From positions 2,135,501-2,199,500 of the forward strand of contig NC_014365.1 of the NCBI RefSeq assembly GCF_000143965.1: 64,000 nucleotides of DNA, in the 5' to 3' direction. Position numbers and translations under genes: made by a program. Shown here one piece after another: positions 19,533 through 26,151 of the stretch. The DNA comes from Desulfarculus baarsii DSM 2075 (GTDB lineage: Bacteria; Desulfobacterota; Desulfarculia; Desulfarculales; Desulfarculaceae). The notes beneath the pieces were generated by a model. The model worked only from the letters and a program-made list of their open reading frames with translations. It searched no databases and was not told the origin of the DNA. Each line of letters opens with the position of its first letter. Within the stretch, counting starts at the first letter, position 1.

Positions 19533-20195
19533 TCACAAAATGACCATCTGGGAGATCTGGCGGATAACCGCCGCCGGCGAATCCACCACGTGCAGCAGGT
19601 CCATGTCCTCGGGGCTGATCATGCCGTGGCCCTTGAGCACGGTGTCCATCCACTGCACCAGTCCGCCCCAGTATTGGCTGCCCATCAAAAACACCGGGAA
19701 GGGCCGGATACGATGGGTCTGGATCAGGGTCAGGGCCTCGGCCAACTCGTCGAGGGTGCCAAAACCGCCGGGCATGACCACGTAGGCCACCGAGTGCTTG
19801 ACAAACATGACCTTACGCACGAAAAAGTAGCGGAAATCCAGGCGCACGTTGGCGTACGGGTTGGGTTTTTGCTCGAAGGGCAGCTCGATGTTGAGGCCCA
19901 CCGAGTGGCCGCCGGCCTCGGATGCGCCCTTGTTGGCCGCCTCCATCACCCCGCCGCCGCCGCCGGTGATCACCGAAAAGCCGGCCTCGACCAGCAGCCG
20001 GCCCATCTCCTCGGCCTGCCTGTATTCGGGCGTGCCGGGCTTGGAGCGCGCCGAGCCGAAGACGCTGACGCCCTTGGGTATTTCGCCCAGGGTGTCGATG
20101 CCGTCGACGAACTCGCTCATGATCCGAAACATGCGCCACGACTCCTTGGCCGACAGCGCATCGACAACGTATTGATTTTCACCGCGCTCTTTCAT
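19533..20195 (-). CDS. LOG-family (TIGR00730) nucleotide-binding protein
   Basis: The protein of about 220 residues is a Rossmann fold with KGVSVFGSARSKPG, the glycine stretch ITGGGGGVMEAANKGA and PGGFGTLDELAEALTLIQ, the PGGxGTxxE signature. LOG proteins cleave the N-glycosidic bond of purine nucleoside monophosphates, including N6-modified AMP. The ATG at 20195 follows GGAGACGG; a GTG at 20213 after GAGGCGGGG is an alternative. It diverges from the beta-CASP nuclease gene. Confidence 0.9.
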   Translation of the reverse strand: MKERGENQYVVDALSAKESWRMFRIMSEFVDGIDTLGEIPKGVSVFGSARSKPGTPEYRQAEEMGRLLVEAGFSVITGGGGGVMEAANKGASEAGGHSVGLNIELPFEQKPNPYANVRLDFRYFFVRKVMFVKHSVAYVVMPGGFGTLDELAEALTLIQTHRIRPFPVFLMGSQYWGGLVQWMDTVLKGHGMISPEDMDLLHVVDSPAAVIRQISQMVIL

Positions 20196-20247
20196 CCAAG
20201 CCGTCTCCGTCACCGCCCCGCCTCGCCGGCTGGCGGCCAGATGTATG

Positions 20248-20276
20248 TTGAATCAAGACCTTGCAAGCTATATTAT
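20248..20276 (+). promoter_or_regulatory. Predicted sigma-70 promoter of the beta-CASP/radical SAM/RNase G operon
   Basis: TTGAAT (20248-20253) and TATTAT (20271-20276) have a 17-base spacer in the AT-rich divergent region, about 90 bases before the first gene. Confidence 0.55.
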
Positions 20277-20367
20277 TAGCGTCCATTAGTATTTGGAAAT
20301 TCCACCACCGTGTCAATAGCGGCCGGCCCCTTTTGCCTGGCTCCTTCTTGGCCCAGCGGAGACGATC

Positions 20368-22005
20368 ATGCAGATTACTTGCCTCGGCGCGACGCGCACC
20401 GTCACCGGTTCGTCATTTCTGGTCGAACTGGACGATCAGACGTGCTTTCTGGTCGATTGCGGACTTTTCCAGGGCGGCCGCCAGATAGAACAACGCAACT
20501 GGGACATCAGCGACCATCGGCCCCAGGACATCAAGGCCATCTACATCACCCACGCCCACATCGATCACTCGGGCCTGGTTCCCCGCCTGACCCGCCAAGG
20601 TTACAACGGCCCCATCTACGCCACCAAGGCCACCAGCGAGCTGCTCAAGATCCTCTGGCTGGACTCGGCCCACATCCAGCAGATGGAGGCCCAGTGGCAA
20701 TCGCGCAAAAACAAGCGCGTCGGCCGCAAGGACATCGAGCCGCTCTACGAAACCGTCGACGCCGAGGCGGCCATCGCCCTGATCCGCCCCGTGGAGATGA
20801 ACGCGCCCCTGGAGCTGATTCCCGGCGTGACCAGCACCTTTGTCTCGGCTGGCCACATCCTGGGCGCGGCCAGCCTGCATCTGTCGCTCCAGGCCGCCGA
20901 CGGCGCGCACAACGTGGGCTTTTCCGGCGACGTGGGCCGCCAAAAACAGCTCATCGTGCCCGACCCCGAGATCATGCCCCGGGTCGACACGCTCTTCATG
21001 GAGACCACCTACGGCCAGCGTCTGCACAAATCCATCGCCGACAGCGAAAAAGAACTCATGGACGTCATCACCCAGGCCTTCAAAGAGGGCGGCCGGGTGG
21101 TGATCCCCTCCTTCGCCGTCGAGCGGACCCAAGAGCTGATCTACGTCATGGCCCAGGCCTACCGCGACGGCAAATGGCCCGGCGAAATGCCGGTTTATCT
21201 CGACTCGCCCCTGGCCATCAAGGCCACCCAGATCTTCCGCGACCACCCCGAGTTTTTTGACGACGAGACCAAGGCCATCCTGGACAGCGGCCAGCGCCCG
21301 CTCAACTTCCCCTTTCTCACGCCCACGCCCAGCACCCAGGAAAGCCAGGCCATCAACGACAAAAAAGGGCCCATGGTCATCATCGCCGGCAACGGCATGA
21401 GCACCGCCGGCCGCATCAAGCACCACCTCAAGCACAACCTGTGGCGCAGCGATTGCCACGTGGTCATCGTCGGCTTCCAGGCCCAGGGCTCAACCGGCCG
21501 CCAGTTGGTCGACGGGGCCGACACGGTCAAGATCTTCCGCGAGGACGTGGAGGTGCGCGCCAAAATCCACACCATCGGCGGTTTTTCGGCCCACGCCGAT
21601 CAGGCCGAGTTGCTGACCTGGCTGGAGCCCCAGATCCACGACGGCCTGTGCGTCAACTTGATCCACGGCGAGGAGCTGCAATCGCTGGGTTTCGCCAAGG
21701 TGGCGCAAAAGCGCTTTCCCAACGCCCACTTCCACGTGCCAAAGTGGAAAGAGGTTATCCGCGTCACGCCCTTTGCCGAGGTCGCGCCGCTGCCCGTCGA
21801 GGAGTTCCCCGAGCCCGCGGCGCGCCTGGCCATGCCCCAGCGCCGGGCCATGGTCGCCGAGGTGCGCCAGTTGCGCGACCGCCTCGACGAGGTCATGCTC
21901 GAAATCCTCACCGGCGAGCGCGACCTGGATCAGCGGCAAATCGAGGCCCTGCGCCAGGTCGTCGAAGGGGCCGAGGCGGCCCTGGCCCAGTGGGAGGCCG
22001 CCTGA
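20368..22005 (+). CDS. Metallo-beta-lactamase/beta-CASP RNA nuclease
   Basis: The 545-residue protein has the HxHxDH zinc motif in THAHIDHSGLVPRL, a second His in SAGHILGAASLHL, a beta-CASP region (RVVIPSFAVERTQELIY, GNGMSTAGRIKHHL) and an RMMBL end (IGGFSAHADQAELLTWL, then NLIHGEELQS). This is the YsfA/TTHA0252 type of endoribonuclease related to CPSF73. A C-terminal helical extension of about 75 residues follows the core. The next gene begins three bases after its stop, and RNase G follows that, suggesting an RNA-processing operon. Confidence 0.94.
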   Translation: MQITCLGATRTVTGSSFLVELDDQTCFLVDCGLFQGGRQIEQRNWDISDHRPQDIKAIYITHAHIDHSGLVPRLTRQGYNGPIYATKATSELLKILWLDSAHIQQMEAQWQSRKNKRVGRKDIEPLYETVDAEAAIALIRPVEMNAPLELIPGVTSTFVSAGHILGAASLHLSLQAADGAHNVGFSGDVGRQKQLIVPDPEIMPRVDTLFMETTYGQRLHKSIADSEKELMDVITQAFKEGGRVVIPSFAVERTQELIYVMAQAYRDGKWPGEMPVYLDSPLAIKATQIFRDHPEFFDDETKAILDSGQRPLNFPFLTPTPSTQESQAINDKKGPMVIIAGNGMSTAGRIKHHLKHNLWRSDCHVVIVGFQAQGSTGRQLVDGADTVKIFREDVEVRAKIHTIGGFSAHADQAELLTWLEPQIHDGLCVNLIHGEELQSLGFAKVAQKRFPNAHFHVPKWKEVIRVTPFAEVAPLPVEEFPEPAARLAMPQRRAMVAEVRQLRDRLDEVMLEILTGERDLDQRQIEALRQVVEGAEAALAQWEAA

Positions 22006-22008
22006 ACC

Positions 22009-24513
22009 GTGCAACGCGATCAAATCATCAGCGCCGTGGAAAAGCCTGGCCGCTATACCGGCGGCGAGGCCTTCAGCGTGATCAAGGACCACGGTCAAGT
22101 AAAGTTGACCATGGCCCTGGCCTTTCCCGAGGTCTATGAAATCGCCATGAGCCATCAGGGGCTCAAGGTGCTCTACGACCAGCTGGCCGGCCGGCCCGAC
22201 GTGGCCGCCGAGCGGGTCTTTTGCCCCTGGACCGACCTGATGGACCTGCTGGAGCAAACCGGCCAGGCCCCCTGGTCGCTGGAAAGCGGCGCGGCCCTGG
22301 GCTCGTTCGACGTGATCGGCTTTTCGTTGCAATACGAGCTGACCTACGCCAACCTGCTGCACATGCTGCGCCTGGCCGGCGTGCCCCTGCGCCGCGACCG
22401 ACGCGGGCCAGAGCACCCGTTGGTCATCGCCGGCGGGCCCTGCGCGGTCAACCCCGAACCGCTGGCCGACTTTCTCGACATCGTGGCCGTGGGCGACGGC
22501 GAGCGGCTGATCCACCAGATCTGCGACCTTGTCATCGCCGCCAAGGAGCAAAGCTGGCCGCGCCAAGAGCTTTATCGCCGGGCCGCCGCCATCGAGGGCC
22601 TCTATGTCCCGGCCCTTTACGAACCCATATATCAAGACGGCCGCCTCGTGACGGTGCGCGCCGTCGACGCCGCCGCGCCGGCCAGGGTCAAGCGGCGCAT
22701 CGAGCCCGACCTGGGCGCCTTCGCCCCGCCCCAGCGGCCCGTCCTGCCGGCGGTCAAGCCCGTGCACGACCGCCTGGGCGTGGAGATCGCCCGCGGCTGC
22801 ACCAGGGGTTGCCGCTTCTGCCAGGCCGGGTTCATCTATCGGCCGGTGCGCGAGCGCCCGCTGGGGCAAGCCTTGAATGCGGCCCTGGAGGGCCTGGCCT
22901 GCACGGGCATGGAGGAACTGGCCCTTTTGTCGCTGTCGGCCGGCGATTACAGCGCCATCGAGCCGCTGGCCCGGGCGCTGATGGACGCCTGCGAGCCGCT
23001 GAAGGTTAGCCTGAGCCTGCCGTCGCTGCGCGTCGATTCGCTGAGCCAGGAGCTCATCGCCCAGATCAAGCGCGTGCGCAAGACCGGCTTCACCCTGGCC
23101 CCCGAGGCCGGTAGCGAGCACATGCGCCGGCGCATCAACAAAGACCTGACCGAGGAGCAGATCCTGGACACGGCCCGCCTGGTTTATGGCCTGGGCTGGA
23201 ACCTGATCAAGCTCTATTTCATGATCGGCCTGCCCGGCGAAAGCGATTCCGACGTGGAGGCCATCGGCCAGTTGGCCCGCCAAGTGGCCCAACAGGCCCT
23301 GGCCGCCGGCCGCGGCCGGGGCAAAAAACCCCTGGTCCACGCCAGCATCGGCATCTTCGTGCCCAAGCCCCACACGCCCTTCCAGTGGGAGGGCCAGCTC
23401 GATCTGGCCCAGGCCGAACAACGCCTGCGCCTGGCCAAGGCCAGCCTGGGCGACAGCCGTCTGCGCGCCAAGTGGAACGACGCGCGCCTTTCGGTGCTGG
23501 AGGGCGTGTTGGCCCGAGGCGACCGCCGGCTTTCGCGGGTGCTGGAGCTTGTCGTGGCGGCCGGCTGCCGCTTCGATGGCTGGAGCGAGCATCTGAACTT
23601 CACGGCCTGGCTGGCGGCCATGGAGGACGCCGGCCTGACGCTGGAGGAATACCTGCGGCCCAGGGGCCTGGACGAGGCCCTGCCCTGGGATCACATCGAC
23701 GTGGGCGTGGGCCGCGACTATCTGCTGGCCGAGCGGGAAAAGGCCGTCACCGGCCAGGCCACGGCCGATTGTCGCGGCGGCAAGTGCGGGGCCTGCGGGG
23801 TCTGCGACTTCAAGGAAATTCGCCCCCGCCTGACCGACGAAAAGCTGCCCGCGCCGGTCGGCCCCGCCGCCGCGCCCGAGGGCGAGGAGCGCTTCAAATA
23901 TCGCTATCGCCTGGAAAAAACCGGCCCGGCCCGTTTTCTGGGCCATCTGGAGATGATGACCCAACTGGCCCGGGCCTTCCGTCGGTCCGGCGCGCCCCTG
24001 GCCCATTCGCGGGGCTTTCACCCCCAGGCCCAGGTCAAGGCCTGCTCGGCCCTGCCCCTGGGCGTGGAAAGCTTGGTGGAGGTCATCGAGATCACCACCT
24101 TGCGGCCCATCGACCCCGTGGCCCTGGCCGAGCGGGTCAACCAAACCATGCCCCAGGGCATGCGCCTGGCTGACGGCCGCGCCGCCCGCCCCGGCGACAA
24201 TCTGGCCGAGCCCGATCTGGTGGGCTACCAGATCGACCCGCCCCGGCCGCTGGATCCGGCCCGCCTGAGCGCCTTCGCCCAGGCCCCGGAGTTCTTTTAC
24301 GCCCGAATTACACCCAAGGGACGCCGGGATATTGATTTCAAGGCCACCATCCGTAAACTTGAGCTGGACGAAAACCGCCTGCTCCTGGAGGTGGGCCGTC
24401 AGGGTGGCCGGCCCAAACCGGCCGAGGTGTTGGAGGCCGTCTTCGGCCTGGAAAAAAACCTGGCCTGTCGGGCCAGGGCGCTGAAAACCCTAGCCAAGTG
24501 GGGAGACAACTAA
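22009..24513 (+). CDS. TIGR03960-type radical SAM protein fused to a DUF2344 domain
   Basis: The 834-residue protein starts with GTG. The N-terminal about 250 residues resemble a B12-binding-like domain, followed by a radical SAM core with the cluster motif GCTRGCRFCQAG near residue 265 and SIGIFVPKPHTPFQWEGQ. A Cys knot (DCRGGKCGACGVCDF) leads into a C-terminal DUF2344 domain (YRLEKTGPARFLGHLEMM, RSGAPLAHSRGFHPQ). In many bacteria these modules are separate or fused and sit beside RNase G, as here. The substrate is unknown; an RNA or ribosome-associated modification is an inference from context. Confidence 0.92.
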   Translation: MQRDQIISAVEKPGRYTGGEAFSVIKDHGQVKLTMALAFPEVYEIAMSHQGLKVLYDQLAGRPDVAAERVFCPWTDLMDLLEQTGQAPWSLESGAALGSFDVIGFSLQYELTYANLLHMLRLAGVPLRRDRRGPEHPLVIAGGPCAVNPEPLADFLDIVAVGDGERLIHQICDLVIAAKEQSWPRQELYRRAAAIEGLYVPALYEPIYQDGRLVTVRAVDAAAPARVKRRIEPDLGAFAPPQRPVLPAVKPVHDRLGVEIARGCTRGCRFCQAGFIYRPVRERPLGQALNAALEGLACTGMEELALLSLSAGDYSAIEPLARALMDACEPLKVSLSLPSLRVDSLSQELIAQIKRVRKTGFTLAPEAGSEHMRRRINKDLTEEQILDTARLVYGLGWNLIKLYFMIGLPGESDSDVEAIGQLARQVAQQALAAGRGRGKKPLVHASIGIFVPKPHTPFQWEGQLDLAQAEQRLRLAKASLGDSRLRAKWNDARLSVLEGVLARGDRRLSRVLELVVAAGCRFDGWSEHLNFTAWLAAMEDAGLTLEEYLRPRGLDEALPWDHIDVGVGRDYLLAEREKAVTGQATADCRGGKCGACGVCDFKEIRPRLTDEKLPAPVGPAAAPEGEERFKYRYRLEKTGPARFLGHLEMMTQLARAFRRSGAPLAHSRGFHPQAQVKACSALPLGVESLVEVIEITTLRPIDPVALAERVNQTMPQGMRLADGRAARPGDNLAEPDLVGYQIDPPRPLDPARLSAFAQAPEFFYARITPKGRRDIDFKATIRKLELDENRLLLEVGRQGGRPKPAEVLEAVFGLEKNLACRARALKTLAKWGDN

Positions 24514-24514
24514 G

Positions 24515-26032
24515 GTGTCCGCCACGCTGCTCATCAACGCCCGGTCGTACGAAACCCGCGTGGCGCTTTTGGAAAACGGCCACTGCGTGGAGGTCTACAC
24601 CGAACGGCACAAACACGGCTCGTTGGCCGGCAATATTTATCTGGGCCGCGTGGCCCGGGTCTTGCCCGGCATGCAAGCGGCCTTTGTCGATATCGGCCTG
24701 CCCAAGGCCGCCTTTCTCTATGTGGGCGACGTGCGCCCCGACGTCAGCTTCGACGAATACCTGGCCCCCGGCGCCTATCCCGACGAGCCCGAAGACGTGG
24801 CCCAGGGCGGAGTCGCCGCCGAACAGGGCCAGGTGCGCATCGAGCAGATGCTCCAGCAGGGTCAGGAGCTGATGGTCCAAGTGGCCAAGGAGCCCCTGGG
24901 CAGCAAGGGCGCGCGCATCACCACCCACATCACCCTGCCCGGCCACAACCTGGTGCTGATGCCCACGCTCAACCACATCGGCGTCAGCCGACGCATCGCC
25001 GACGAGGATGAGCGCAATCGCCTGCGTCAGATCATCGAACAGATGGCCCCCGGCGGCTACGGCTTCATCGCCCGCACGGCCAGCGAAAACCAAGAGCCCG
25101 ACAAGCTGCGCGCCGAGATGGATTTTCTGGTCTCGCTGTGGGAGTCGATCCTGCTGCGCCGGGGCCGGGCCATGGTGCCCAACATGCTCCACCGCGACCT
25201 TTCGGTGAGCTTGCGGGCGGTGCGCGACCTCTGCACCCGCGAGGTCGATCACATGATCATCGACTGCGAGCAAGAGTATTACGAAGTGGTGGAGTTCGTC
25301 TCCACCTTCTTGCCCCGGCTGGTGCCCTGCGTGGAGTTTTATCGCGGCCGCGAGCCCATTTTCGACGCTTATGGCGTCGAGCACGAACTGACCCGGGCCC
25401 TGGGCCGCAAGGTCTGGCTGAAATCGGGCGGCTACGTGGTCATCGAAAAGACCGAGGCCCTGACCACCATCGACGTCAACACCGGGCGCTACGTGGGCGG
25501 CCACAACCTGGAGGAAACCATCCTCAAGACCAACCTGGAGGCGGTCAAGGAGATCGCCTGCCAGATCCGCCTGCGCGACCTGGGCGGATTGATCGTCATC
25601 GATTTCATTGACATGGAAAAAGAGGCCAACCGTCTGCGCGTGGTGGAATCCCTGAAGGACGCCCTGCGCGGCGACCGCTCGAAGACCAACGTGCTGGCCA
25701 TGAGCCCGCTGGGCCTGGTGGAGATGACCCGCAAGCGGGTGCGCCAATCGCTGGGCGAAAGCCTGACGGAGCCTTGCGCCTATTGCCACGGTTCGGGCAA
25801 GATCAAGGACGCCAGCACCGTCTGTTACGAGCTTTTCCGCGAGCTGGAGCGCGAGTTGCCCCACCTGGAGGCGGCCGTGGTCCACGTGGCCGTGCACCCT
25901 AGCGTGGCCGAGATGATGCTGCAAGAAGAACGCTACGTGCTGGAGGAGCTGGAATCCAATTATGGCGTGACCATCCAGGTGGAGGCCGACCTGACCCTGC
26001 ACCGCGAGCACTACGCCATCCGCGCCGAATAA
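24515..26032 (+). CDS. rng: Ribonuclease G/E family endoribonuclease
   Basis: The 505-residue protein has an N-terminal S1 domain (HGSLAGNIYLGRVARVLPGM, then GLPKAAFLYVGDV), the 5'-sensor and the catalytic Mg-binding acids in TIDVNTGRYVGGHNLEET and GGLIVIDFIDME, and the zinc-link CAYCHGSGKI. The short length without the long C-terminal scaffold marks RNase G, which matures 16S rRNA 5' ends and cuts mRNA. It starts with GTG one base after the radical SAM gene, so the two are co-translated. Confidence 0.96.
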   Translation: MSATLLINARSYETRVALLENGHCVEVYTERHKHGSLAGNIYLGRVARVLPGMQAAFVDIGLPKAAFLYVGDVRPDVSFDEYLAPGAYPDEPEDVAQGGVAAEQGQVRIEQMLQQGQELMVQVAKEPLGSKGARITTHITLPGHNLVLMPTLNHIGVSRRIADEDERNRLRQIIEQMAPGGYGFIARTASENQEPDKLRAEMDFLVSLWESILLRRGRAMVPNMLHRDLSVSLRAVRDLCTREVDHMIIDCEQEYYEVVEFVSTFLPRLVPCVEFYRGREPIFDAYGVEHELTRALGRKVWLKSGGYVVIEKTEALTTIDVNTGRYVGGHNLEETILKTNLEAVKEIACQIRLRDLGGLIVIDFIDMEKEANRLRVVESLKDALRGDRSKTNVLAMSPLGLVEMTRKRVRQSLGESLTEPCAYCHGSGKIKDASTVCYELFRELERELPHLEAAVVHVAVHPSVAEMMLQEERYVLEELESNYGVTIQVEADLTLHREHYAIRAE

Positions 26033-26122: not shown

Positions 26123-26151
26123 TTGACGTCGCCGCCGCGATTGCATATCGT
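26123..26151 (+). promoter_or_regulatory. Predicted promoter of the acyl-CoA dehydrogenase gene
   Basis: TTGACG (26123-26128) and TATCGT (26146-26151) have a 17-base spacer and lie 32 bases before the start codon, immediately downstream of the inverted repeat. Confidence 0.45.

Follow-up and report, generated by a model that had tools for sequence, protein, structure and literature searches.

A radical SAM-DUF2344 fusion protein with a TruA-like domain, encoded next to RNase E/G in Desulfarculus baarsii: a candidate RNA-modifying enzyme

Genes of the locus

The DNA analysed here, called the window, is a stretch of 64,000 nucleotides from Desulfarculus baarsii DSM 2075 (G000:C1:2135501-2199500), whose genome is a single contig of 3,655,731 bases. 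It carries a trio of plus-strand genes encoding a beta-CASP nuclease, a fusion of a radical S-adenosylmethionine (SAM) enzyme with the domain DUF2344, and a ribonuclease of the RNase E/G family (Table 1). We tentatively propose, giving it just under an even chance, that the last two genes form a ribosome-linked module in which the radical SAM enzyme, probably with cobalamin, modifies an RNA that an inactive TruA-like domain keeps in place.

The three genes are separated by 3 bp (beta-CASP/radical SAM) and 1 bp (radical SAM/RNase), a spacing given in a preliminary description of this DNA and borne out by the coordinates of the open reading frames (ORFs) and by their Pfam and NCBIfam domains. 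The single promoter postulated there would correspond to a sigma-70-like site at 20248-20276 (+), with 9/12 consensus matches, which is a predicted promoter lying in a divergent region: promoter-like sites on the minus strand (20316-20288 and 20299-20272) share the intergenic region and face a TIGR00730 gene to which the preliminary description did not extend. The segment 20150-26250 contains four promoter-like sites, where shuffled sequences average 0.6; one of the four is downstream at 26123.

The ribonuclease scores 484.1 bits with TIGR00757 (cut-off 325.95) and contains the motifs IDxNxG and DFIDM, which we take to be catalytic, and CxxCxGxG, presumably its zinc motif. Its earlier designation as RNase G holds in the sense of a G-like member of the RNase E/G family, the protein staying below the cut-off of the RNase G equivalog PRK11712 (527 versus 594 bits). 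Since a second, RNase E-like gene (an ORF of 646 amino acids) is present elsewhere in the host genome, the window gene is the G-like copy. In E. coli, RNase G matures the 5' end of 16S ribosomal RNA (rRNA).

Table 1. Features of the locus, with truA genes found near relatives of the fusion gene
Feature	Coordinates	Strand	Remarks
TIGR00730 gene, LOG-like, divergent from the trio	19533..20213	-	TIGR00730 144 bits, cut-off 96.35
Divergent intergenic region, promoter-like sites on both strands	20214..20367	.	Consensus matches only
Beta-CASP ribonuclease, TTHA0252-like	20368..22005	+	545 aa, ATG start; Pfam Lactamase_B, Beta-Casp and RMMBL
Radical SAM-DUF2344 fusion (TIGR03960 and TIGR03936)	22009..24513	+	834 aa, GTG start; Pfam Radical_SAM_N2, Radical_SAM and DUF2344
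Rossmann-like N-terminal domain and radical SAM barrel, MgmA-like, residues 34-505	22108..23523	+	VIA-align to 9ccb
Radical SAM [4Fe-4S] motif CxxxCxxC, C264-C268-C271	22798..22821	+	Cys in 81/81 at each position
Second four-cysteine site CxxxxCxxCxxC, C588-C593-C596-C599 (metal or Fe-S)	23770..23805	+	Cys in 79, 80, 80 and 80 of 81
DUF2344, predicted TruA fold without catalytic aspartate (P683 aligned), residues 626-834	23884..24510	+	Structure and profile comparison
RNase E/G family ribonuclease, G-like	24515..26032	+	505 aa, GTG start; Pfam RNase_E_G and RNase_E_G_Thio
truA near radical SAM-DUF2344	L025:579-1346; L037:5737-6471; L040:13813-14547

The two parts of the fusion protein

The fusion protein passes the cut-offs of both NCBIfam families, with 678.6 bits for TIGR03960 (462.3) and 128.5 bits for TIGR03936 (71.9). 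The literature searched, which did not cover subscription papers and preprints, yielded no paper naming either family, no function for them, and no work dealing with DUF2344 together with radical SAM, or with radical SAM together with RNase G and rplU or cobalamin; the earlier statement that the protein has no known substrate agrees with this. From a full-length alignment of the window protein with 80 relatives (81 sequences), AlphaFold produced a model with a mean predicted local distance difference test (pLDDT) of 95.0 and a predicted template modelling score (pTM) of 0.94.

In the full model, residues 626-834 superpose on residues 7-255 of E. coli TruA (1dj0) with a Z of 12.9, over 193 of 209 residues and with a root-mean-square deviation (rmsd) of 3.2. 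When DUF2344 was folded alone (pLDDT 96.4), the best Foldseek match was again a TruA (1vs3, E 7.4e-9); of the 26 chains retrieved at E<=0.001, four come from mitoribosomal small-subunit entries (6sga from T. brucei, and 9hny) and the other 22 are pseudouridine synthases or Cbf5. The 50 VIA rows for the domain, which are a second look at Foldseek's own matches, bear titles of pseudouridine synthases or H/ACA particles, except 6sga, 9hny and 1zl3, whose titles are silent, and the TruA chains reach Z values of 10.9-12.5 with the isolated model. Profile comparison points in the same direction: hhalign aligned 80 DUF2344 with 29 TruA sequences at a probability of 90.4 and an E-value of 1.4e-6, and TruA with the whole fusion protein at 78.1 and 1.8e-5, these being one-pair E-values without database correction. 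The DUF2344/TruA score is 51.4, whereas none of 100 column shuffles exceeded 25.3. Pfam evidently groups the two families already, a paper on its PUA clan (PMC7955657) naming DUF2344 alongside PseudoU_synth_1. Of two weak TIGR03936 hits taken from the class sample, one (L141, with RTDAGVHS) is a genuine truA gene; its TIGR03936 match is below the cut-off, and so is its Pfam DUF2344 match (E 0.0077). Modelling thus describes DUF2344 as a whole TruA fold.

The catalytic aspartate of TruA lies in the motif R-T-D-x-G-V-H-A. At the aligned position the 80 DUF2344 sequences carry P in 65, S in 11, A in three and T in one, D being found in none, and the global alignment likewise pairs A-L-P with R-T-D. 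Loss of the aspartate is deduced from this pairing, which falls on the border of the locally aligned region, and from the lack of any D-x-G-x-[HE] motif in 80/80 sequences. An active pseudouridine synthase was rejected on the ground that no sequence has Asp at the aligned position; 3/80 sequences contain an R-[TS]-D tripeptide at some position. We also discarded a conserved stretch S-x-G-F-H-P as the counterpart of RTD, the profile alignment placing A-L-P-x-G there. RNA binding is characteristic of the TruA fold, and DUF2344, which as far as can be judged is devoid of the catalytic residue, is best regarded as a module that holds RNA.

For the radical SAM part (residues 34-505), the closest structure is that of MgmA (9ccb), with a VIA-align Z of 22.6, an rmsd of 3.0, 371 aligned residues and 21% identity. 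Next come MiaB (19.8), MtaB (19.2), CysS (18.9), RimO (17.4), AprD4 (17.2), TsrM (16.5) and OxsB (16.2), TokK being listed as well. Foldseek with the fusion model places MgmA and TsrM first and includes Elp3. According to PMC11796369, the target of methylation by MgmA is a glutamine in methyl-coenzyme M reductase. The use of cobalamin by the fusion protein is suggested by this modelled resemblance, and the fold alone is no proof of it, since MiaB and MtaB outscore the B12-type enzymes except MgmA.

These scores bring in an alternative in which the substrate would still be RNA but the chemistry would proceed without cobalamin, either as a methylthiolation of the MiaB, MtaB or RimO type or as a carbon addition of the Elp3 kind, and the second cysteine site might act as an auxiliary cluster. 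The four conserved cysteines at 588-599 would suit such a role, and so would the presence of Elp3 among the matches. Methylthiotransferases use three N-terminal cysteines for a second cluster, and MiaB and MtaB act on transfer RNA (tRNA). That three-cysteine site is not present in the 81 sequences of the fusion family, where the only column of the N-terminal domain with Cys in at least 20 of 81 sequences is C145 (48/81). Given this absence and the clear first rank of MgmA by Z, we consider a cobalamin-free reaction rather unlikely.

A second TIGR03960-like protein is encoded in the host genome at L007:9900-12149 (-), about G000:C1 3104900-3107150. It scores 385.9 bits, below the cut-off, has a similar cysteine-rich end and no DUF2344, and its gene lies near one that appears ubiE-like by eye. 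In other genomes, a second, weaker radical SAM match was seen directly upstream of the DUF2344 fusion (L048, L060) or on the opposite strand at a distance of about 9 kb (L027).

Distribution and gene neighbourhoods

TIGR03936 matches 189/198 genomes sampled in the phylum, 185 of them over the cut-off. Among 14 named controls, TIGR03936 and TIGR03960 were both matched in Synechococcus elongatus and Thermotoga maritima only, two controls passing each cut-off. The closest named relative found belongs to a Desulfarculus metagenome-assembled genome (MAG), with 65% identity (L009). A scan of named genomes gave two loci. One of them, in a Coriobacteriaceae MAG (L010:10001-12600) from beyond the phylum, has radical SAM and DUF2344 as separate adjoining genes followed by rplU and rpmA, with no RNase match nearby.

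To describe the gene neighbourhoods we used 80 loci (L011-L090) around TIGR03936 matches, from 58 families of the phylum sample, one locus each (three for the window's family), with a further 20 loci from a class sample. The choice favoured strong matches on long contigs; 63 of 82 families are covered and 19 left out. Adjacency was scored by tblastn with the window's RNase, a search that a very divergent RNase could escape. In 48/63 families the radical SAM gene has RNase E/G directly 3' of it in the same orientation, so that the association is indeed as wide in this phylum as had been claimed. By loci, the figures are 50/65 outside the window's family and 14/15 inside it, in addition to the window. 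The two genes lie within 300 bp of each other in all adjacent loci but L050 (for L066 and L067 the distances are those of the adjacency survey, the rplU/rpmA search giving differing values from joined high-scoring segment pairs). The radical SAM-DUF2344/RNase E/G pair is old and ribosome-linked.

Clustering of the genes that follow the RNase in the 80 loci, named by eye, gave Obg-like (9), ProB-like (7), ProA-like (6), L27 (5), L21 (4) and NadD-like (4) proteins; two broader clusters, one kinase-like (8 loci) and one of ABC ATPases (5 loci), seem to be generic recurrences of large families. A direct search placed rplU and/or rpmA in the fetched stretch of 10/80 loci, and in L065 and L083 they immediately follow the radical SAM gene, no RNase E/G intervening. 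In the host genome the rpmA link is absent, since that gene (G000:C1:2647053-2647292) and the radical SAM gene are some 490 kb apart. Together with the protein substrate of MgmA, these neighbours raise the question of whether the substrate here could be a protein as well, such as the RNase itself or a ribosomal protein (L21, L27) encoded nearby, the TruA-like domain serving only for docking on a ribosomal particle. This we judge improbable: the TruA fold binds RNA, the rplU/rpmA neighbourhood concerns a minority of loci, and checked genomes without the adjacency (e.g. G014, G072, G105, G129 and G157) have RNase E/G elsewhere.

Some other neighbourhoods deserve mention. A truA gene is found in the fetched stretch, up to about 6 kb from radical SAM-DUF2344, in 3/80 loci, versus about 0.4 estimated from gene density, and in differing orientations (Table 1). 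In family f19 (L143 and L144, two sampled genomes with no DUF2344 match), RNase E/G adjoins genes that by eye encode an HNH-type nuclease and an SMC-like protein.

The first gene of the trio behaves differently. The best solved relative of its product is TTHA0252 (2dkf), with 286.3 bits over residues 1-447. The window protein has the features of that type, Lactamase_B, Beta-Casp and RMMBL domains with HxHxDH at residue 62, which we take to be its catalytic motif. Two other identities fell below their cut-offs and were rejected, the Cas14 of type VII CRISPR (NF045584, 323.8 versus 800 bits) and aCPSF1 (292.8 versus 580.2 bits). Within the window's family, the beta-CASP gene adjoins the radical SAM gene in 15/16 genomes (14/15 fetched loci and the window; the exception is L012), and, counting the window, the gap is exactly 3 bp in 11 of the 15 family loci with both genes. 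This recurrent gap and the radical SAM-RNase E/G adjacency in most families take the arrangement of the trio beyond chance. Contact between beta-CASP and radical SAM genes was seen in one other family (L022, L097 and L109); in L022 and L097 the RNase E/G gene is not adjacent to them, and in L109 the radical SAM gene is cut short by the end of the contig.

Close beta-CASP relatives (E<=1e-70) are present in 63/118 genomes of the phylum. We looked at 20 of their loci in other families, picked from 64 listed matches and mostly high-scoring: the neighbour is a TIGR00730 gene in 9 (divergent in 8, in the same direction in one), the radical SAM gene in 2, and neither of them in 11. The nine loci with TIGR00730 (L097, L098, L099, L102, L103, L105, L107, L108 and L109) belong to five other families. 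By family resemblance only, the TIGR00730 product of the window would be a nucleotide phosphoribohydrolase; it falls short of the CtkRMPhLog cut-off (49.6 versus 300 bits). TTHA0252 is a 5'-3' exo-RNase that affects global mRNA levels, according to PMC4229858. An exo-RNase of this kind would suit RNA turnover with a nucleotide-cleaving TIGR00730 partner, and the two may form a possible pair for RNA turnover and nucleotide salvage.

We give somewhat better than even chances to the idea that the beta-CASP gene belongs to such a separate pair and is merely co-transcribed here with the radical SAM-RNase module. The frequency of close relatives and the recurrence of TIGR00730 beside them, a gene also present in the window, argue for it, while the tight 3-bp gap, the contact with the radical SAM gene in a second family and the 11/20 loci with no TIGR00730 gene near beta-CASP argue against it. 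This idea is compatible with the RNA-modifying module proposed above, and rejects only a single three-gene pathway. The window has the look of two modules brought together; most simply, the TIGR00730 and beta-CASP genes formed one pair, the radical SAM and RNase genes another, and the two pairs became neighbours. In L083, a locus from a sister family within the order, the contig has TIGR00730, radical SAM, rplU and rpmA and neither nuclease, and ends 864 bases past the radical SAM gene. The beta-CASP protein is thus most likely a family-specific addition working in RNA turnover. If the two pairs simply became neighbours, it adds little to the functional argument, and the suggestion that it sharpens the case for RNA- or ribosome-linked chemistry was not borne out. 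Such chemistry itself is favoured by the TruA-like fold of DUF2344 and the wide link with RNase E/G.

Proposed function and relation to known systems

A chemical change of RNA is most likely the job of the radical SAM-DUF2344 enzyme, with the inactive TruA domain appearing as its RNA handle. In the two-gene module that we propose, the TruA-like domain would hold a structured RNA, an rRNA precursor or a tRNA; the radical site, probably with cobalamin, would add a group to a nucleotide, most simply a C-methyl; and RNase E/G would trim the same RNA before or after its modification. RNA would be the substrate and methyl the group transferred, rRNA being favoured over tRNA. The fully specified version, a B12-dependent C-methylation of rRNA (or tRNA) guided by the dead TruA domain and yielding a nucleotide modification that still lacks an assigned enzyme, is doubtful.

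Several observations weigh against the proposed two-gene module. MiaB and MtaB outscore every B12-type enzyme but MgmA, and MgmA, the closest structure, modifies a protein. No B12-binding Pfam domain was detected in the fusion protein at E<=0.001, its N-terminal domain matching Radical_SAM_N2. The hhalign E-values come from single pairs, the alignment is confident over 63-67 columns, and forcing it to be global gives a probability of 36. The Asp/Pro pair is the first column of the local alignment in one run and just outside it in another. Finally, 15/63 families lack the radical SAM-RNase E/G adjacency; two genomes (G018, G174) have RNase E/G with no DUF2344 match and no TIGR03960 over the cut-off, and two others (G121, G149) have it with DUF2344 only marginal. 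The link is not obligate, and co-occurrence of RNase E/G with DUF2344 follows no sharp rule across the sampled genomes, of which G050 and G087 (92% and 89% complete) lack both. Because of the rank of MiaB and MtaB above most B12 enzymes and the position of the Asp column at the alignment edge, we slightly lowered our estimates for the cobalamin-assisted module and for its fully specified version, and raised that for a cobalamin-free reaction.

With TIGR03936 in most sampled genomes of the phylum, the locus draws attention to a common enzyme without a function. The fusion family is known but uncharacterised; its reading as a dead TruA domain joined to a B12-type radical SAM enzyme is new and testable, and narrows the search from RNA- or ribosome-linked chemistry in general to a missing nucleotide modification.

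The proteins of the locus resemble well-studied systems, each with its own departures. The RNase shares with E. coli RNase G (Rng) the RNase E/G domain with its catalytic and zinc motifs, and differs in remaining under the equivalog cut-off. The beta-CASP protein, akin to TTHA0252 of Thermus thermophilus over most of its length, has about 100 extra C-terminal residues, and its gene shares an operon with those of the radical SAM and RNase E/G proteins. With MgmA and the B12-dependent radical SAM methyltransferases CysS, TsrM, OxsB and TokK, the fusion protein has in common a Rossmann-like N-terminal domain and a radical SAM barrel, to which it adds the four-cysteine site and the TruA-like C-terminal domain. 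It shares its overall architecture with MiaB, MtaB and RimO, whereas their N-terminal three-cysteine site is missing. Its C-terminal domain has the whole predicted fold of TruA, PUS1 and PUS3, with a significant profile match, but shows A-L-P in place of R-T-D and is fused to a radical SAM enzyme. Lastly, the window protein is a full-length member of the uncharacterised TIGR03960/TIGR03936 families (Radical_SAM_N2, DUF2344), distinguished by the beta-CASP gene that precedes its own.

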